DNA from: a virus
Length of the DNA stretch: 45,452 nt
Strand: one strand, 5' to 3'
IMG/VR virus record: IMGVR_UViG_3300045935_000007
Coordinates: 1-45,452 of that record
Every line of letters begins with the position of its first letter. Positions within the stretch are counted from its first letter, which is position 1. Under the pieces are notes generated by a model. It was given only the letters and a program-made list of their open reading frames with translations, was not told where the DNA came from and searched no databases. Position numbers and translations under genes: made by a program. Positions 2,238 to 45,452 of this stretch are shown piece after piece.

Positions 2238-3311
2238 ATGGCAACGCGTGGAAGACGTAAGGCAGACAGCACAAGCAAAATTTCACTTGTGCAGGCACTT
2301 GCATTCGCCGAAGGTGTATTGAAGTCGGACCGTGATTTCAAGCAAAAGCACGTCTATATTGGACATGGAATGCTTGTGGGCTTTGACGGTACGCTGGCTG
2401 CAGGTCATCCAATTAGCGAAGATATAGAGGCTGTACCGCATTCTGGCAAGTTACTAAAGGCGCTCGAAAGATCAGATGAAACCGTACAGGTAACGTTGAA
2501 TGATTCAAAGCGGCTTAGTGTTAAAGCTGGCAAGTTTCGCGCAGTCATCGAATGTTTGGATGTAGGTGAGTTTTATTCCCCACAGGGTGACAAGTCGATT
2601 GCTGTCATCGGCGAAACTTTACGCGACGGATTCAAGGCAATAACACATATCGTAAATCACGAAGCCGATAAAGTGCATTTTGCAACAGTGCTCATACGCG
2701 CCGGTTCAATGATGACAACCGACGGTAGAACATTATTTGAATATTGGCACGGAATTGATTTGCCGGAAATGGCACTTCCGAAAGCCGCAGCTACAGCAAT
2801 AACGAAGACTGATAAGAAACTTGTAGGCTTCGGATTCAGCGGGCATTCGGCAACGTTTCATTTTGAAGGCGGCGCCTGGATTCGCAGCCAGCTTTTTGCC
2901 GACCGCTGGCCGGACGTGAGCCGTGTTCTAGACGTTAAAACGAACGCATGGCCTGTATCCCCTACCCTCTTCGCTGCGGCACGCGCTGTGCGCCCTTTCT
3001 GCAAGCCGGATGATGAGGCGCTGACCTTCTTTGACGAGGCGATAGGCTCGCACAGTTTGCTCACCGAGGGGGCAGTACACGAGGTTCCAGGGCTGCTCGC
3101 AGGGCCAGTATTCAACGCCGAACAACTGGCGCAAATTGAACCACTTGTAAAGACGATTGATTTCACAACGAAGCGAGGGCATGCTTACTTTTTCGGGGAT
3201 AATGTTCGCGGTGCGATTGCTGGAATGGGAAAGTCGGAGCAAGCGAAACCAGCCCCGAAAACATTAACAACCGAAGAACTTAAAGACATGCGTAACGATA
3301 TTCCGTATTGA
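2238..3311 (+). CDS. DNA polymerase sliding clamp-like protein (beta-clamp fold)
   Basis: The 357-residue protein is close to the usual length of bacterial DnaN. It has beta-clamp-like stretches: an LRDGFKAITHIV segment followed by a TDGRTLF segment (residues ~130-170), as in domain 2 of DnaN. It also has a lysine-rich strand followed by an IRSQLFADRWPDV segment that parallels the family's I-x-S-x-L-x-x-G-x-x-P-D. The ring would tether the phage polymerase to DNA. The next gene is a family B polymerase that ends in QAALFF, a clamp-binding-type peptide, which supports the call. The C-terminus is NDIPY, similar to an SSB tail. AAGG lies 7 nt before the ATG. Sequence similarity to DnaN is remote, so the fold is a strong inference. 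Confidence 0.72.
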   Translation: MATRGRRKADSTSKISLVQALAFAEGVLKSDRDFKQKHVYIGHGMLVGFDGTLAAGHPISEDIEAVPHSGKLLKALERSDETVQVTLNDSKRLSVKAGKFRAVIECLDVGEFYSPQGDKSIAVIGETLRDGFKAITHIVNHEADKVHFATVLIRAGSMMTTDGRTLFEYWHGIDLPEMALPKAAATAITKTDKKLVGFGFSGHSATFHFEGGAWIRSQLFADRWPDVSRVLDVKTNAWPVSPTLFAAARAVRPFCKPDDEALTFFDEAIGSHSLLTEGAVHEVPGLLAGPVFNAEQLAQIEPLVKTIDFTTKRGHAYFFGDNVRGAIAGMGKSEQAKPAPKTLTTEELKDMRNDIPY

Positions 3312-3313
3312 CT

Positions 3314-5272
3314 ATGTTCTTCAACGAATCCCCACAGTTCAAGCGCAAACGTGGTCAGCCTGGACCGAAGCGAGAATTGCACCGTGCCGAACGACCGACT
3401 AAGGCGCTCGATTTCCTGACGTATGAGGAAATCCGTGCTTCTGTGGGTAATGAATACACGGTTGACGTGGAGTGCGCTCCGAACTTCTTTTTTGTTGGCA
3501 TGAAGCATAAGGCTTCTGGCAAAGTTACATCGGTTGAGTTATCTCCTGATGTTCCTGTGCTTGATCGGGATTTGCTAGGCTTTATTTTGTTTGGATGTCT
3601 GAATGTGACGTTCAACGGTAATAAATACGATATGCTCATGATGTTTGGGGCTATGTCAGGCTTGAATAATGAATCGTTGAAAGAACTTAATGATTTCATT
3701 ATTCTTGAGGGTGCTACAGCGTATGACGTGCAAAAGCGATATGGTTTTCGTGTCCCGCGCCACATTAATCATATCGACTTAATTGAAGTTGCACCGTTAT
3801 CTGAATCGCTGAAAACTTACGCAGGTCGGTTGCATTGCAAGCGAATGCAGGATTTGCCGTTTAGCCCTAACGATCCACTTACAGCAGAAAACGCAATGAT
3901 TACGCGCCACTACTGTATCAACGACTTAGATAATACCGAATTGCTTCGCGATGAACTGCGCCCGCATATTGAACTGCGCGAAAAATTAGGTAACGAATTT
4001 GAGCTAGATTTGCGCTCTATGTCGGATGCGCAGTTGGCAGAAAAGATTATTTGTCGTGAGTATCATCGTATTACAGGCGAATGGCCGAAACGTCCGGGAT
4101 TCTTTCCCGGCGCTACATTCAAATATGAAGCACCTTCATATATTGCGTTTAGAACACCTACATTGCAAAAGATGCTTGCGGATATTCTTGGTGCGACAAT
4201 TACAGTTGGCGAATCTGGACATGTTGAATGCCCGCCTGAAATTGAAGGCGTAACAATTCAAGTGGGCGATAACATATATAAAATCGGCATGGGCGGCTTG
4301 CATTCTCAAGAGAAATCCCAAACGATTCGCGCTGATTCAGAGTACGGTGTTTTTGACCGTGACGTCACCGGTTATTACCCAAATCTTATCCTTAAAAATG
4401 GATTCTATCCAAAGCACTTGGGATTAGAGTTTCTAACAGCATTACAATCGATTGTCGATAAGCGATATGCGGCGAAAAAAGCTAAGGAAATGGTTACCGC
4501 CGACAGTTTGAAGATTGCCAGTAACGGAACCTTCGGCAAACTATCTGATCCGTATTCGACAATGTACGATCCTAAGATGATGGTTCAAACTACGTTGACT
4601 GGTCAATTGTCTCTGCTGATGATAATTGAATATTTGGAAGAAATCGGAATTCGCGTTATGTCCGCAAACACGGACGGTATTGTTATTCATTGCTTGCGAG
4701 GTCGCTATGCAGAAATGGTCAAAGCGTTCCAAGTTTGGGAACAAATCACCAAGTTGGAAACAGAAGAAACCGAATACACCGGCTTATATAGCCGCGATGT
4801 CAACAATTACTTTGCTGTCAAACCTGACGGAGAAGTCAAGAGTAAAGGAGTCTATACCGAAAAAGGCTCTGCGCTTAACAGTCGTCTTTCAAAGAACCCT
4901 GAATCGCTTATTTGTTCCGATGCTGTCAAAGCTTTTCTATCGAAAGGCGCGTCAATCGAATCATTCATCCGAGATTCCAGAGATATACGACGTTTTGTAA
5001 GTATTCGAAAAGTTAAAGGTGGTGCCCACAAGGATGGCGAATATCTCGGCAAAGTCGTTCGGTTCTACTATTCAAAAGAAGAACGCGGGTGCATTCAAAC
5101 AGTCGAATCTGGCGGCAAAGTTCCAAAGACAGACGGTGCTCGACCATTAATGGATTTGCCCGACAGCATCCCGTCAGATTTGAATTATGAATATTATGTA
5201 AAGGAGGCTACCGATATTCTCCACGATATAGGATACTTCCCGAAGCCTAAACAGGCTGCGCTTTTCTTTTAA
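3314..5272 (+). CDS. Family B DNA polymerase with 3'-5' exonuclease
   Basis: The 652-residue protein has an N-terminal proofreading domain: Exo I DVE with Asp51 and Glu53, Exo II NGNKYD at 101-106, Exo III YCIND at 200-204. The palm motifs of family B follow: motif A DVTGYYP at 350-356, motif B KIASNGTFG at 400-408, and motif C NTDG at 452-455 in place of the usual DTD. The C-terminus, KQAALFF, looks like a clamp-binding motif. The start is uncertain. ATG 3314 lies just after the clamp gene stop, and an in-frame TTG at 3308 is an alternative; neither has a clear Shine-Dalgarno. It is the presumed replicative polymerase, coupled to the clamp gene. I see no terminal-protein gene that would indicate protein priming. 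Confidence 0.93.
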   Translation: MFFNESPQFKRKRGQPGPKRELHRAERPTKALDFLTYEEIRASVGNEYTVDVECAPNFFFVGMKHKASGKVTSVELSPDVPVLDRDLLGFILFGCLNVTFNGNKYDMLMMFGAMSGLNNESLKELNDFIILEGATAYDVQKRYGFRVPRHINHIDLIEVAPLSESLKTYAGRLHCKRMQDLPFSPNDPLTAENAMITRHYCINDLDNTELLRDELRPHIELREKLGNEFELDLRSMSDAQLAEKIICREYHRITGEWPKRPGFFPGATFKYEAPSYIAFRTPTLQKMLADILGATITVGESGHVECPPEIEGVTIQVGDNIYKIGMGGLHSQEKSQTIRADSEYGVFDRDVTGYYPNLILKNGFYPKHLGLEFLTALQSIVDKRYAAKKAKEMVTADSLKIASNGTFGKLSDPYSTMYDPKMMVQTTLTGQLSLLMIIEYLEEIGIRVMSANTDGIVIHCLRGRYAEMVKAFQVWEQITKLETEETEYTGLYSRDVNNYFAVKPDGEVKSKGVYTEKGSALNSRLSKNPESLICSDAVKAFLSKGASIESFIRDSRDIRRFVSIRKVKGGAHKDGEYLGKVVRFYYSKEERGCIQTVESGGKVPKTDGARPLMDLPDSIPSDLNYEYYVKEATDILHDIGYFPKPKQAALFF

Positions 5273-29839: not shown

Positions 29840-32287
29840 TTATGCCCAACCTGTTCCGATGACTGCACCCGGTGTAACGGTAGCGCCCGATGTGTTTGCA
29901 GCGGTGAAAGCAAACCACAAATCAGCATTCGACGTTGCAGCGAATTGATGGATATCAATCCAAGTTGTGGGTGTGCTAGAACGAGCAATCTGACCCTTGA
30001 TAACGCCAGCGCTCCGCGTAAAGCGCATGATATCGCCATTTTGAACGGCAGTTGTGGAGCTAAGATTGCCTGCAGTTGAAGAAGCAGCGCCGTCAACAAT
30101 GACACGATAGATGAGCGAACCGTGTGCCTGAAGACCGAACTTATAGCCAGTTGCACCGGCAGAGAAGACCGGATCAGATTGGGCCGTAACAAGACCGATG
30201 ATGAATGTATCGGTAGAGGAAGGCGCAATACTCGGATACGCCATGCGAATGGCACCATCAACACCAGCCGGCATCTTAGTTGACGAAGTACCGGCCGAAT
30301 CAGTGCCGAATGCTGCGGCTGTTGCAACGGTGTAAACCCAGCCAGCACCGGAGCTACCAGTTTCGGTAATCTTTGTGCCGGTAATGTGAGTTAACCGAAC
30401 ATTCGAATCAGTCAACGAACTGGAAGCAGTTGCAACTGTAACAGTTGAAGACCACGCACCGTTAGGATTCGTACCGTAGTTATTTGCACGAATACGGAAA
30501 TCGTACGTCGTTGAAGACGTTAAACCAGTAACATTTATTGAGGTTGATATGCCGAAACCATCAACAAAATCAACCCAAGTTCCTGCACCAGTTGGCGAAA
30601 CTTGCATTTGATAATCCGAAACACTTCCACCGCTAGAGGGGGCTGTAAAAGTGAACGGGATCGAAGTTGCAGTTGAAGTGCCGGCAGTTAGTCCGGTTAC
30701 CTGACCAGGCGCAACCGTTTGACCTGCATTCGCAAGAGCGGTTGCGCGCGCTGCATACATCGAAGTACCGGTTGCACGTGCTTGCGCCGCGTTATAGTGC
30801 AGATTGTCGCTCGTCTGACCAGACACGCCAGCGATGATTGTGGTTTTGGCAATATCAGCAACAGAACTTAATGCTGCATCAACTTCTGCATAACTGCCAA
30901 CTTGATTAGCAATAGTTTCAGGCACAAGATGCGAAGCAATAATTGGCACATTTGCTGCACCTGTAATACCAGCACGCAAGCCGGCAAAAACGTCTTTAAC
31001 TGCTTGCGCATAAGCCGGCCCTGTCACAAAGTTGCTGGCATCTCCTTCACCTTGGAACCAAAGGATTGCAGAAACTGTACTTCCGGGTGCAGCGGCAATA
31101 GCACGATTGACTTGATCGATAGCATTCAAGAAATCGCGATTGTTTCCCGATCCGTATGGGCTCCAAGTTGAATTGGCTCCTGTTCCAAGAATGGAAGTGC
31201 CACCCCATGCAACAGGAACCAGTAACACCTTACGACCTGTTGCCGCAGCATGAGCCTTGCCATAAAACATTCCAGGGCCAACAAGTGTCTGACCTGGAGA
31301 AAGCGCCGTCAACTCTGGGTGCTTAAGTCGATCTTGCGCTTGAATGATTGTGCGATAAGTTGGCGAATCGGCCCATCCATCAAACTGGAATACGTTTGCA
31401 TCAACCGTGTCGATGCTCGAATTATAAACACCACGCCCCGCCATATTAGATTGTCCCATAAGCGGGATAATATCGTAAGTGACAGTCGGTGCAGTTGCTG
31501 TGATAGTCGGGCAACTTGCGCTAACAGCAGGTCCAACACCGTTAAATGCAGTTGTTAACAAATCGAAGTAATCACCGGCAACAAAGTTAGTATAAGAACC
31601 TGAAGTAGCCGAAGTAGAAACGACAGTTCCATTCTTCGAAAGTTGATAAGTAACTGTAGGCGTCGGTGAACCTGTCACAACAGCACCAGACCATGCAACA
31701 GCGGATGCAGTGGAAATTGCCTGAAGAATACCAGCCGTCGTAATTTGCGCTTGAACAGGCAATGTAATTGCAGCACCTGCTACACCATTGCAAGTCCAAA
31801 ACTTCGAATTGCCAGAGCGACGAAGTTTGATTTCGTTGTGGGCACCGGACGTCGTGACCCAGCCAGAGATTGCAACACCATCGACAGTAGGTGTATGGGA
31901 GCCGTCGGCAACGAATGTGGCGACTGTATAGCCGCCAACATTTGAATCGACATCGGACGAGATTAAAGCGACCGCCGCAGTAATCGTTTGCTCGCCCATA
32001 TCCTTTGCAGCGTTCGTATCCCAAGTTAAAGCGAAATCAACTTGTTTTAGCTCAAGATTTGCAACGCGATTAATCACGTTATAAATCATCCCTGCTGACA
32101 ATTGAACGATAGCACCCAAGCTTCCAACAGGGCCGAGTGTCATAGTGCGATTGCCATTGAAATACGGCGCTGCACCTTCATAGCCTTTAATGCCATAAAG
32201 CACAGTAGCGGTTCCGCTACCGGATAACGTAATCGATTGACCTTTTTGCAGCGCAATTTGCGTTGTGCTTGATACGGTAGTGCCCAT
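29840..32287 (-). CDS. Tailspike/tail fibre with SASA-type carbohydrate acetylesterase domain and FN3
   Basis: The 815-residue protein has a beta-rich virion-attachment half (1-260). An SGNH/SASA esterase domain follows (about 270-520): GQSN at 278-281 with Ser280 as nucleophile, AWGGTSI, WFQGEGD at 410-416, and DNLH at 494-497 giving the catalytic Asp and His. A fibronectin III-like domain lies at ~526-622, followed by a C-terminal beta-rich domain of about 190 residues. It likely removes acetyl groups from capsule, exopolysaccharide or O-antigen as the first receptor contact. AGGGG lies 7 nt before the ATG. It has its own promoter and terminator, 18 kb from the other tail-fibre genes, suggesting independent gain. 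Confidence 0.88.
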   Translation of the reverse strand: MGTTVSSTTQIALQKGQSITLSGSGTATVLYGIKGYEGAAPYFNGNRTMTLGPVGSLGAIVQLSAGMIYNVINRVANLELKQVDFALTWDTNAAKDMGEQTITAAVALISSDVDSNVGGYTVATFVADGSHTPTVDGVAISGWVTTSGAHNEIKLRRSGNSKFWTCNGVAGAAITLPVQAQITTAGILQAISTASAVAWSGAVVTGSPTPTVTYQLSKNGTVVSTSATSGSYTNFVAGDYFDLLTTAFNGVGPAVSASCPTITATAPTVTYDIIPLMGQSNMAGRGVYNSSIDTVDANVFQFDGWADSPTYRTIIQAQDRLKHPELTALSPGQTLVGPGMFYGKAHAAATGRKVLLVPVAWGGTSILGTGANSTWSPYGSGNNRDFLNAIDQVNRAIAAAPGSTVSAILWFQGEGDASNFVTGPAYAQAVKDVFAGLRAGITGAANVPIIASHLVPETIANQVGSYAEVDAALSSVADIAKTTIIAGVSGQTSDNLHYNAAQARATGTSMYAARATALANAGQTVAPGQVTGLTAGTSTATSIPFTFTAPSSGGSVSDYQMQVSPTGAGTWVDFVDGFGISTSINVTGLTSSTTYDFRIRANNYGTNPNGAWSSTVTVATASSSLTDSNVRLTHITGTKITETGSSGAGWVYTVATAAAFGTDSAGTSSTKMPAGVDGAIRMAYPSIAPSSTDTFIIGLVTAQSDPVFSAGATGYKFGLQAHGSLIYRVIVDGAASSTAGNLSSTTAVQNGDIMRFTRSAGVIKGQIARSSTPTTWIDIHQFAATSNADLWFAFTAANTSGATVTPGAVIGTGWA

Positions 32288-37792: not shown

Positions 37793-40171
37793 TCAAAACA
37801 ACTTGGAAACGTCCATCACCGCATAAAGCTTGCCGGATGTACCGTATTTTGCCAATGTTGCTTGGTCGATTTCCTTTAAGCAACCTTCAAAACAGAGAGA
37901 TTGAACGCAACGCATGAAAGATTGAGAAGAACCACCAACACCTAAACGAAACGCCGCGAGTTGAATTAAATTTTGACGCAGGTACGAATAAGAGATTATT
38001 TTGTTATTATGCAATGCTTTATCAAATGTATGTTTCGGCAAAGTAGTTGCACTTTCACCAACGTAACGACGTAAGAACTTCTTCGCATCTGCTGTTTGAC
38101 GTGCATCCCCTTCGCCAACTTCACCACGTTCGAATCGATCAAGCATGCGCTTTGTTCCATCATTGATGATCGTTACAGCCCATCGATATGCGTGGGCATC
38201 GATCATCGGATTAAATGGATTGTTGCCAATCGCAACCAACGCTGCAAGTTTCATTGCTTTAACGTGAGCGCGCGACCACACTTGACGTGCTGATTCTTTC
38301 GATTCACCTTCCAATGCTCGTTTAGTCACCGACCGATATTGCTCGTTAAGGTGTTGCGCCTCAGCATCCATAAGCACATGTACTGCACGATTCATATGAT
38401 CCATCTTTAGAATCGTGGTCATGAGTGTTGCAATCTTCGTCAACAGGTCTTGACTAGGTCGCGTTGTGTGAGCCCATGCGTTATAAGTTTCGCTACCCGA
38501 ATCCTGTTCGATCAAGGTGAAGCGCGGTAATAGGCCGTCGGCCATCATCGTTTCGTTGAGCGCATCCCACAGGTGGACCGGCGCTGTTTCGCCGAGCAAT
38601 GTGAGTGCTGGCGATTGAATGCTTTCGGTGTTCTTCAGTTTGTCAGCAAACAACGATGCACCTAGATATTGACCTTCGCCGGATTTGGTGAACAGTTCTA
38701 GATATGCTTTCTTCAGCAGCTTTATCGGAGATGGGGCACGAGGATGCGTGAGGTTTTGTAATTCAATCCCAAATTCAGTTTGAATTGAAAGGCACGATTT
38801 GCGTTCCTTAATTGCAGCATATAAGGCTTGTCCTGACGCAATTTGATCCGCGCCAAAGTACGATTTAGAACCGGGTAAAATCTCGCCGATAGCATTAGCA
38901 AGTTTCGATATCCCTCCTGCCATAGCTTCTTTACCCGTACCGGTCGGAGCAACCAGTAGAAGATATAGATTGCATCCCAATCCGTTAACGTTGAAGGCAC
39001 GGCCACAGATTGCGGAAAGGAATGCGATCGATGCTGTGAGCGCAGTTCGCGGCAAAGGATACGCGCTCTGTGCGTACATGAATTTTGCAATTTCGCCAAG
39101 CAAACCCGGCGGCGAATCGAAATCGTCATCCGAACGAATTGCAGGTGCGATGGTGAACGGAGTATCGGCCTTTTCTTGCTCTTTTTGTTCAATTTGCTGT
39201 TTAGCGATTTGTGCATTGCGCTCATGATGTTCCCTAAGTTGTCGCTCGATACCGGCAAGTCGCTTTTGTTCTAGCTCTGCTTTTTCGCGAGCTATTTCAG
39301 TTAGTATGCGATTGCCTTCAGCGATAAGTGCATCAATATTAATAAGTTCTACTTGCTGATCCAGTGCCTTGTCGATTGTCTTTTGCAAATAGTCTTTACG
39401 ATATGCTTTATCGCGCTTGCCAAGAACGGACATATGGAAGATGCGGGCAAGCTGCTGATGATTCTGCGTATAGAACGCAAGAATATTCATCAACGCTTGA
39501 TCGGCATCCGATTGCGATCCCCATGTGCCTTGCCATTCGCCTTTGAATAGTTGAATGAACAAGTGTCCATTTTTGGCAGCATAGGCGCGGTCGCAAATCG
39601 ATGAATCATCGTCAGTCTGATTACGACTGATTACCGGCGCATCGTCCTTTTGTCCAGCAAGTTCACCGTACAGCGAATCAATAACCTGTTGGCATTCACC
39701 AATGGGATCATTACGATAGACATTGCCAGTCATCGTCATATAGCGAAGTTCACTATACATTTCGACGCCCGGTTTGCGCTTGTTGATACCCACAGGTACA
39801 GCACCGCGGGCGATGATGTGCAGGCCCTTACCGCTGGGGCTGATTTCTTGATACGTGGCGAATGCAGCGGAAATCTTTTGCTGCGCTTCTTTGAACTTAG
39901 CTAGTTCTTCGCCTTCGGCCTTTGGTTCATCTAGATCGATGAAACAATACGGGTCATCTTTCGTCAGTACGAAACCAATGCCGTCAAATCCTTGCACGTC
40001 ACATGCGAATTCGAATGAAGCCCATGTTTGCGGATTATTAACTTCGGCTTTCAGCCCTTGAACGCACGGCGAATACGGAACCTTTGTAGGCTTTGATCCA
40101 TTACGATCTTCATAACGCCAAACGACCCATTGCGCTCTATCGCGCAGTTCTTGCGGGATATTTGCGAACAT
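37793..40171 (-). CDS. Primase-helicase: PrimPol-like N-terminus with DUF3987-type ATPase
   Basis: The 792-residue protein starts with a PrimPol-like domain of the NrS-1 type. It has WVVWRYEDRNG near residue 15, acidic FIDLD at 77-81, a SGKGLHI motif at 113-119 and RYMTMTGN at 143-150. A charged coiled coil (283-337) links it to a DUF3987-type ATPase with Walker A APTGTGKE at 408-415 and TEFGIELQNL as a Walker B-like segment. It should prime and unwind DNA at the fork, and it sits next to the repeat cluster at 37546-37778. The ATG shares a base with the upstream HTH gene stop (TGATG). It is on the opposite strand to the rest of the replication genes. Confidence 0.87.
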   Translation of the reverse strand: MFANIPQELRDRAQWVVWRYEDRNGSKPTKVPYSPCVQGLKAEVNNPQTWASFEFACDVQGFDGIGFVLTKDDPYCFIDLDEPKAEGEELAKFKEAQQKISAAFATYQEISPSGKGLHIIARGAVPVGINKRKPGVEMYSELRYMTMTGNVYRNDPIGECQQVIDSLYGELAGQKDDAPVISRNQTDDDSSICDRAYAAKNGHLFIQLFKGEWQGTWGSQSDADQALMNILAFYTQNHQQLARIFHMSVLGKRDKAYRKDYLQKTIDKALDQQVELINIDALIAEGNRILTEIAREKAELEQKRLAGIERQLREHHERNAQIAKQQIEQKEQEKADTPFTIAPAIRSDDDFDSPPGLLGEIAKFMYAQSAYPLPRTALTASIAFLSAICGRAFNVNGLGCNLYLLLVAPTGTGKEAMAGGISKLANAIGEILPGSKSYFGADQIASGQALYAAIKERKSCLSIQTEFGIELQNLTHPRAPSPIKLLKKAYLELFTKSGEGQYLGASLFADKLKNTESIQSPALTLLGETAPVHLWDALNETMMADGLLPRFTLIEQDSGSETYNAWAHTTRPSQDLLTKIATLMTTILKMDHMNRAVHVLMDAEAQHLNEQYRSVTKRALEGESKESARQVWSRAHVKAMKLAALVAIGNNPFNPMIDAHAYRWAVTIINDGTKRMLDRFERGEVGEGDARQTADAKKFLRRYVGESATTLPKHTFDKALHNNKIISYSYLRQNLIQLAAFRLGVGGSSQSFMRCVQSLCFEGCLKEIDQATLAKYGTSGKLYAVMDVSKLF

Positions 40172-43400: not shown

Positions 43401-44129
43401 ATGTCCAAACTTGGTATGAACTTCAATTTCCGTGCTGCCGATTACGATCCCACGCAAGGTGCTGGATCGATGCCGGTCGGTCAGCATCCGGTAATCATCA
43501 AAGAATACAAGATTGAACCGACGAAGAACGGCGATGGTGGAATGCTGGTTCTTACGCTGGAAGTAATTGACGGACCCAGCAAGGGTGTCACCGGCCCCCA
43601 TCGGTTGAATTTGTGGAATCCGAGCGAAGCTGCGGCACGCATTGCCCATTCGCAACTTTCCGCAATTTGCCATGCCGTTGGCGTTGCCGAACTGCAAGAC
43701 GAAATTACACCGATTCTTGGTCGTCCGTTCCAAGTTGTCGTAACGACTCAACCACAAAACGAAAAGTACACGCAAGTTTCGAAGATTTTGAACATGCAAG
43801 GTCAAGAACCGAAGCGTGGCGAATTCGCAAACGGCGGTGCGGCTCTGCAGGGCAACGGCATGCCGCCGCAAGGTTTTGCTGGTCAACCGGCGCAACAAGC
43901 ACCGCAACAAGCACCGCAACAGGCATTCCAGCCCCCGCAGCCCGCACCGGCGCAAGGTAGCCAACCGTGGGCACAGCCCGCTCCGCAGCAACAGCAAGCC
44001 CCTGCTCCTGCTCAATGGGCGCCGCCTGCCGCGCAACCCGCCGCGCAACCCGCCGCAGCAGTTCCCGCCGTTGGCGGATGGCAACAAGGTGCCACGCCAG
44101 CCGGTGGCGCAATGCCTTGGCAAAAGTAA
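43401..44129 (+). CDS. SSB-like DUF669 protein
   Basis: The 242-residue protein has the DUF669 N-terminal domain, an OB-like fold: FNFRAADYDPTQGAGSMPVG, then VIIKEYKIEPTKNGDGGMLVLTLEVIDG, then HRLNLWNPSEAAARIAHSQLSAICHAVG. After about residue 150 the chain is low-complexity, rich in Gln, Pro and Ala, as in SSB linkers. It ends AMPWQK and lacks the acidic SSB tail. It likely binds single-stranded DNA and partners the Sak4-like ATPase. AAAGAGTAAGA precedes the ATG. Confidence 0.88.
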   Translation: MSKLGMNFNFRAADYDPTQGAGSMPVGQHPVIIKEYKIEPTKNGDGGMLVLTLEVIDGPSKGVTGPHRLNLWNPSEAAARIAHSQLSAICHAVGVAELQDEITPILGRPFQVVVTTQPQNEKYTQVSKILNMQGQEPKRGEFANGGAALQGNGMPPQGFAGQPAQQAPQQAPQQAFQPPQPAPAQGSQPWAQPAPQQQQAPAPAQWAPPAAQPAAQPAAAVPAVGGWQQGATPAGGAMPWQK

Positions 44130-44777: not shown

Positions 44778-45452
44778 ATTGATTAGCCTTTCGGCACCCG
44801 GTGCACAGCGCGCATTAGCTGCAAAGATTCTGGCTGATATCGATAACTATTGCGCCACAAAATACGACGATGGTCACCGTTGGCATTTAGGTTCATCGTT
44901 AATGGGGCGCGATTGCACGCGTTACCTGTGGTATACGTTTCGCTGGTGCTATCACAAAAAGCATGATGGCCGTCAACAAAGGTTGTTTAATCGCGGGCAT
45001 TTGGAAGAGCATCGTTTTATTGAATGGTTGAAGGGAATTGGTTGTGAGACGTGGAATGAAACAGAGGATGGCAAGCAGTTTCGGATTAGTGGCGTTATGG
45101 GCCACTACGGCGGCAGTTTGGATGGCATTTTGCGCCTCCCTGCCTCTTATGGTGTTGACTGCGCCGCATTCCTCAATGAATTCAAAACCAGCGGAACCGG
45201 CCGAAAGTTCGATGAGTTGTGTAAACAAGGTGTCAAGATTGCCAAATATGAACATTATGTTCAAATGTGCCAATACGGCCGGCAATATAAATTTAAATAC
45301 GCCGTTTACATGTCCATCAACAAAAACGACGATAGCTTGCATGTCGAAGTAGTTGAATTAGATTGGTTGATCGGCGAAGAAACAGAAAAAAAGGCCGAAT
45401 ATATTATCATGTCGCAAACGGCTCCGAAGAAACTTTCTGAATCAGCGGCGTA
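44692..45452 (+). CDS. Cas4-like PD-(D/E)XK nuclease, N-terminal part (continues at position 1)
   Basis: Joined across the circle the gene encodes 315 residues. The core motifs are Cys75 in GRDCTRYLW, HLEEHR at 103-108, Asp144 in GSLDG and EFK at 163-165 (the D...ExK set). The C-terminal CX2CX5C at 257-266 and Cys75 give the four ligands of the 4Fe-4S cluster of Cas4/AddB-type nucleases. It likely works with the Sak4-like ATPase and SSB-like protein in end resection. The start at 44692 lies inside the previous gene with a weak AGG; ATG 44728 is an alternative. Confidence 0.85.
   Translation, partial: MSKNVELFNSSEMQSIEEKAEQKPEEAVKLISLSAPGAQRALAAKILADIDNYCATKYDDGHRWHLGSSLMGRDCTRYLWYTFRWCYHKKHDGRQQRLFNRGHLEEHRFIEWLKGIGCETWNETEDGKQFRISGVMGHYGGSLDGILRLPASYGVDCAAFLNEFKTSGTGRKFDELCKQGVKIAKYEHYVQMCQYGRQYKFKYAVYMSINKNDDSLHVEVVELDWLIGEETEKKAEYIIMSQTAPKKLSESAA
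45326..45452. repeat. Terminal direct repeat, right copy
   Basis: Identical to 1-127; see that entry. The duplicated bases encode the same codons of the Cas4-like nuclease. Confidence 0.93.

Follow-up and report, generated by a model that had tools for sequence, protein, structure and literature searches.

Viral DNA polymerases of family B can be held to a clamp encoded by the same virus, as in T4 and RB69, where gp43 is attached to gp45 through its extreme C-terminus; the clamp gp45 is a trimer of the PCNA type and has a loader of its own, gp44/62. A C-terminal clamp-binding peptide (TLMTGQLGLF) is likewise present on another family B enzyme, E. coli DNA polymerase II, and the host beta-clamp consensus is QL[S/D]LF (PMC3716654). 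The consensus is given as QxxLF in a review that also lists the pocket residues of E. coli beta and states that the glutamine matters for binding to E. coli beta, yet is not strictly required (PMC11139829). Among 42-kb siphophages, DLP1 and DLP2 carry a polymerase (gp27) and a replicative clamp (gp28) (PMC4559383). A different C-terminal peptide, the SSB-Ct, is found on SSB as MDFDDDIPF and is bound by E. coli RadD via R21, R49 and R145 (PMC10238739); the chi subunit of the host clamp loader is cited in the same paper as binding the SSB-Ct.

Genome and gene order

We analysed virus record IMGVR_UViG_3300045935_000007, a stretch of 45,452 bases referred to here as the window. A Cas4-type exonuclease gene spans the junction of its circular ends and is followed, in order, by genes for a RadD-like helicase, a small Cys-rich protein, a clamp and a polymerase. 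The features of the window that bear on replication are as follows.

1-127 and 45326-45452: terminal direct repeat, identical, 127 nt (circular, complete assembly)
287-1993, + strand: RadD-like SF2 helicase with zinc ribbon (best PDB relative E. coli RadD, 6jde)
1980-2228, + strand: small Cys-rich protein, 82 aa (PHROG 23504, unknown function)
2202-2225, + strand: SSB-Ct-like peptide LDEESIPF, C-terminal end of the small Cys-rich protein
2238-3311, + strand: predicted beta/DnaN-type sliding clamp, 357 aa (AlphaFold2, VIA and family profile)
3234-3308, + strand: C-terminal extension of the clamp, residues 333-357, ending NDIPY, past the canonical beta C-terminus
3308-5272, + strand: frame of a family B polymerase with 3'-5' exonuclease domain, 654 aa from TTG 3308, with a likelier start at ATG 3314
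5249-5269, + strand (5249-5272 with the stop): polymerase C-terminal tail KQAALFF, a QxxLF-type motif
43401-44129, + strand: phage SSB-like protein (PHROG 6015), ending GGAMPWQK, without a DDIPF tail

The clamp and polymerase frames overlap by 4 bases; since relatives begin MFF-, the polymerase more probably starts at ATG 3314. Elsewhere in the window, a primase/helicase-like protein (37793-40171, - strand) matches the NrS-1 polymerase HBD domain and has a possible further clamp-binding end, DVSKLF; no relatives of this SKLF-ended primase were found in our scan. At 29840-32287 (- strand) lies a frame whose product combines a SASA acetylesterase domain with a fibronectin III domain and has no PHROG match.

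We consider it likely that the locus encodes a phage beta clamp which is loaded by the host and serves as a hub for peptides, with the polymerase tethered to it by its tail, all of these contacts being predicted ones. A preliminary description of the window had already paired a clamp with a family B polymerase ending in a clamp-binding peptide. Both the pair and the polymerase tail stand, but the SSB-like C-terminal peptides had been overlooked, as had a DpdA-like enzyme that bears a clamp-binding-type tail in DNA-modifying relatives.

The sliding clamp and its peptide pocket

As a single sequence, the 357-aa protein encoded at 2238-3311 gave no clamp match in Pfam or the PDB. It did match PHROG 947, 'DNA polymerase processivity factor' (E 2e-54), and a PDB search with a 22-member clamp profile returned bacterial beta clamps only (best E 2.8e-6), with hhalign giving a probability of 93% for the clamp profile against E. 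coli DnaN. The AlphaFold2 model (monomer, 56 sequences, mean pLDDT 93.3) aligned by VIA-align with the C. crescentus clamp 5wce over 319 residues and all three domains (Z 27.7, rmsd 2.6). Residues 8-332 of the model align with residues 3-366 of E. coli beta, its whole length, and values across beta clamps ranged from 26 to 28 for Z and from 2.4 to 3.3 for rmsd. All Foldseek and VIA-align matches listed for the model were beta clamps; a PCNA-type clamp was set aside, as no PCNA stood among the leading structural matches listed. By its predicted structure, which matches DnaN-type clamps along the full length, the protein is a DnaN/beta-type sliding clamp of unambiguous fold, in agreement with the beta-clamp-like segments first noted in its sequence. 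The family-wide clamp alignment was too diverse to serve as a query for scanning contigs.

The peptide pocket of the phage clamp appears, from alignment and model, to be partly conserved. Thr172 and Pro242 of E. coli beta correspond in the profile alignment to T161 and P225, the 11th and 17th most conserved of the 357 positions. Equivalents of Leu177, Val247, Val360 and Val361 fall mostly in hydrophobic columns of the phage clamps, the alignment of domain 3 being uncertain; profile alignment with E. coli DnaN broke down in that domain, and for this reason the pocket there was mapped from structural end-points. Equivalents of Leu155, His175 and Met364 vary among phage clamps, which points against our preferred reading.

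The family B polymerase

The polymerase matches PHROG 1252 (E 5e-183), and its AlphaFold2 model (pLDDT 93.0) found family B polymerases as top Foldseek matches, among them an archaeal PolB (E 1e-15) and E. coli Pol II (E ~1e-12). Superposition on these structures gave a global TM of ~0.45 and an rmsd of ~10, and its domains are therefore placed differently from those of solved family B structures. Eleven residues are invariant across 56 polymerase sequences (D53, E55, D108, Y202, D206, D350, D352, K402, N406, T455 and D456), and these belong to motifs Exo I-III and Pol A, B and C. The protein has a PolB fold and intact catalytic residues and is a member of the family B polymerases.

SSB-Ct-like tails around the clamp

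The small Cys-rich protein upstream of the window clamp ends LDEESIPF, in which acidic residues are followed by Pro-Phe at the extreme C-terminus, as in the SSB-Ct. The NDIPY end of the window clamp itself is a poor match, which again points against our preferred reading. Many clamps of relatives end DDDIPF, EDDIPF, DDVPF or DDEIPF, and where the clamp has no such tail the small upstream protein usually bears one; in Stenotrophomonas phage BUCT626 the RadD-like helicase (L023:3366-5195) itself ends YEDDDIPF. In phage Halfdan the small protein ends DFDIPF, and the polymerase has KRPDLF near its end. Of 65 clamp loci that include a RadD-like helicase, 53 have a tail of the DDIPF type, compared with one among 2710 other frames and one among the 17 clamp loci lacking the helicase; in a larger set, 52/76 helicase-bearing clamp loci had one. 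When 53 loci dereplicated at 80% were sorted by carrier, the tail was on the clamp only in 14, on the small protein or helicase only in 26, on both in 2 and on neither in 11. Tails on the clamp and on the small protein thus tend to be mutually exclusive (Fisher p 2e-4, with no correction for shared descent), and the state with the tail on the clamp only requires three or more changes on the tree. That an SSB-like tail is kept while its carrier changes between clamp and neighbour points to a physical link. Phage SSBs mostly end in sequences like PWGQR (the APWGQR type) and carry no DDIPF tail. Among the papers listed by a literature search, none joined the SSB-Ct with phage clamps.

As a separate observation, a Pam3_Gp34-like protein of 302 aa (L094:8063-8971) ends SDDVPF in a locus that has no clamp and whose polymerase ends RTLFDKAA.

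The SSB-Ct-like tails could recruit the phage's own RadD-like helicase, not host proteins, an explanation to which we give some credence while regarding it, on balance, as doubtful. E. coli RadD binds the SSB-Ct (PMC10238739), and RadD is the nearest characterised structure to the phage helicase (best PDB relative 6jde, E 5.9e-45, related in sequence over residues 9-359). The phage protein is called RadD-like only, because its full-length score against the NCBIfam RadD model (E 5e-62, 210 bits) lies below the curated cut-off of 720. The restriction of the tails almost entirely to helicase-bearing clamp loci would also fit, but tail and helicase share descent as well, and of the three RadD contacts only the one at position 145 is as a rule a basic residue in the phage proteins (58/62 aligned), the equivalents of R21 and R49 not being kept. 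The idea that conservation of the RadD pocket might prove the helicase to be the SSB-Ct partner is unsupported.

The polymerase C-terminal tail

The polymerase ends KQAALFF in frame, directly before a stop at 5272, and QAALFF has the Q, L and F of a clamp-binding-type motif in place, with Ala at position 2 as in QADMF (PMC11139829). In the model the tail follows the last helix (627-640) and has no predicted secondary structure, the last block having a pLDDT of 67.

Virus contigs, phage records and genomes supplied the polymerase relatives, which were dereplicated at 90% identity, and endings in LF, MF, FF, SFF and similar, or LI/LL, were counted as LF-type. The C-terminal QxxLF-type peptide proved to be conserved among clamp-bearing relatives: an LF-type ending was present in 75/101 clamp loci compared with 7/61 clamp-less relatives. 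All 75 fall among the 83 clamp loci that have no adjacent DpdA-like gene, and none among the 18 that have one. A strict [LMI]F or FF pair closes 64 of these 83 tails, compared with a mean of 21.7 and a maximum of 34 when these tails were shuffled 2000 times. Glutamine stands at a fitting place in just 29/83, which points against our preferred reading. The polymerase tree shows only about three changes in clamp presence, and the tail and clamp counts are therefore not independent; statistical independence of the association was dropped for this reason, and phylogenetically independent pairs neither supported nor opposed it. From these sequence comparisons, the polymerase probably holds the phage clamp by its last few residues.

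It is unlikely, in our estimate, that the tail binds the host beta clamp instead of, or besides, that of the phage. In its favour, QxxLF is the host consensus (PMC3716654, PMC11139829), and beta clamps from different bacteria bind the same ligands (PMC11139829). Clamp-less relatives should be the likeliest users of a host clamp, yet 54 of the 61 lack the tail, a figure that reflects few evolutionary events, and key pocket positions are kept in the phage clamp.

A DpdA-like enzyme with the same ending

In those 18 clamp loci, where the polymerase is untailed, an upstream gene codes for the DpdA-like enzyme, which resembles queuine tRNA-ribosyltransferases. All 18 have an LF motif at or near the C-terminus of this enzyme, one of them a few residues before the stop. 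An alignment of 11 sequences showed that the final L and F are invariant and preceded by approximately 20 variable residues, and in a wider dereplicated set 65 of the 69 clamp-adjacent DpdA-like proteins had [LMI]F no more than two residues from the stop, the other four being near variants. Many of these ends are exact QxxLF motifs (DQIGLF, DQMGLF, DQLGLF and DQPLLF). The LF-ended enzymes beside a phage clamp are located as follows.

L017, 5063-6001: DpdA-like enzyme beside phage clamp, LF-ended
L019, 4854-5774: DpdA-like enzyme beside phage clamp, LF-ended
L022, 5039-5992: DpdA-like enzyme beside phage clamp, LF-ended
L301-L380: further loci with such enzymes

The DpdA of phage 9g, which inserts a modified base (PMC6884629), ends LQDLFDE. 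The queuine transferase of Streptococcus phage Dp-1 (L295:1042-1977) ends QRRLF, and three genes downstream of it the phage encodes a DnaN of its own. Five DpdA-like proteins of actinobacterial and Cellulophaga phages had no LF-type end; we took these five as clamp-less because their phages were absent from the organisms matched by the clamp search. The word 'clamp' is absent from the phage DpdA paper (PMC6884629), and among the papers listed by a literature search none linked DpdA to clamps.

The LF ending of the DpdA-like enzymes is a finding in its own right, and it suggests that DNA modification is coupled to the clamp. It also supports, indirectly, the view that the phage clamps have a functional pocket of the bacterial type, and it bears on a further explanation of the polymerase tail, namely that the LF ending does not bind a clamp at all and packs on the polymerase or serves another partner. 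The absence of the canonical Gln from many tails would agree with this, clamp binding being a deduction in any case, but the tail lies past the last helix without secondary structure, an unrelated enzyme encoded next to the same clamp bears this ending in loci whose polymerase is without it, and the ending is missing from the five DpdA-like proteins of phages unmatched by the clamp search. We regard this explanation as highly unlikely.

Clamp loading and proposed mechanism

Searches of the complete genome with PF13177, PF00004 and PF06144 detected the controls and no recognisable clamp loader. For this reason a host loader is probably needed, and we infer that the host gamma/tau complex would load the phage clamp; the same lack makes recruitment of the host loader by an SSB-like tail an attractive idea. 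The hosts most often named for clamp-bearing phages are Proteobacteria, and among 14 control genomes the chi family was present in E. coli and Caulobacter.

In the mechanism that we favour, the beta clamp and the family B polymerase would together form the phage replicase, with the flexible C-terminal QxxLF(F) peptide acting as a tether that docks in the peptide pocket of the phage clamp. The SSB-Ct-like peptide of the small protein, and weakly that of the clamp, would bring SSB-interacting factors to the clamp, the candidate partners being chi of the host loader, further SSB-binding proteins of the host and the phage's own RadD-like helicase. This would make the clamp a hub with two peptide codes, in which QxxLF peptides bind in and an SSB-like peptide reaches out from the clamp or its neighbour. 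A more specific version, which we put forward only tentatively, is that the codes are interchangeable: either the polymerase or a DpdA-like enzyme may be the client that plugs in by a QxxLF tail, while the SSB-Ct-like tail may recruit SSB-binding proteins, such as chi, so that the ring of a loaderless phage gets loaded. That the clamp is a decoy or inhibitor of host replication and not a processivity factor is scarcely credible, in spite of the missing loader, given that the phage polymerase is its constant neighbour though the clamps are often only 25-40% identical, and that the polymerase tail is conserved.

If our preferred reading holds, the locus would provide a small model replisome in which a family B polymerase of viral origin works with a clamp of bacterial type and a loader borrowed from the host. 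The clamp-binding-type end of the DpdA-like enzymes predicts how phage DNA modification may be coupled to replication: with the clamp as hub, 7-deazaguanine would be written into DNA at the fork by a DpdA-like enzyme plugged into the clamp. A comparable coupling in animals is that of DNMT1 with PCNA.

Comparison with known systems

The clamp and polymerase had been thought to form a dedicated phage processivity system of a kind undescribed in small siphophages. The phage does bring its own clamp and polymerase, but not a loader that can be recognised in its complete genome, and the claim of novelty was wrong because 297 phage records and the DLP1/DLP2 paper already carry or annotate such clamps. 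In the regions examined, the polymerase was adjacent to the homologous clamp or a few hundred bases off, and the pair is mostly annotated as clamp and polymerase, the clamp as 'replicative clamp', 'DNA polymerase III beta subunit' or 'processivity factor'. The same neighbouring pair is found in KL1, PA73, DLP1/DLP2, Halfdan, Loki and RcTitan (siphophages of ~42 kb) and in Queuovirinae of ~60 kb. The PHROG 947 clamps (KL1, PA73, Kakheti25, DLP1/2, Halfdan, Loki and Queuovirinae) belong to the same family as the window clamp and lie just upstream of a family B polymerase; the window clamp is at most ~39% identical to those in the phage records found, and has a tailed neighbour together with a weak tail of its own.

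Bacterial beta clamps (E. coli 2pol and C. crescentus 5wce) share the three-domain fold (Z ~27) and several pocket positions with the window clamp, at ~15% identity and with 325 residues compared with 366. Unlike them, the window clamp has a C-terminal extension with a weak SSB-Ct-like end and no loader in its genome. The window polymerase differs from E. coli Pol II in belonging to another sequence subfamily and in having a phage-encoded clamp beside it, and from the T4/RB69 arrangement the locus differs in that the clamp is of the beta type, in contrast to gp45, and no loader is encoded. The phage tails share with the SSB-Ct (MDFDDDIPF) an acidic stretch followed by [I/V]PF at the extreme C-terminus, but unlike the SSB-borne original they are carried by the clamp or by the small Cys-rich protein. 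Two C-terminal hooks on neighbouring proteins, one of clamp-binding type and one SSB-like, appear to be previously undescribed, and what is new with respect to the known systems is that two such mobile peptide codes, both C-terminal, are grouped about the clamp.
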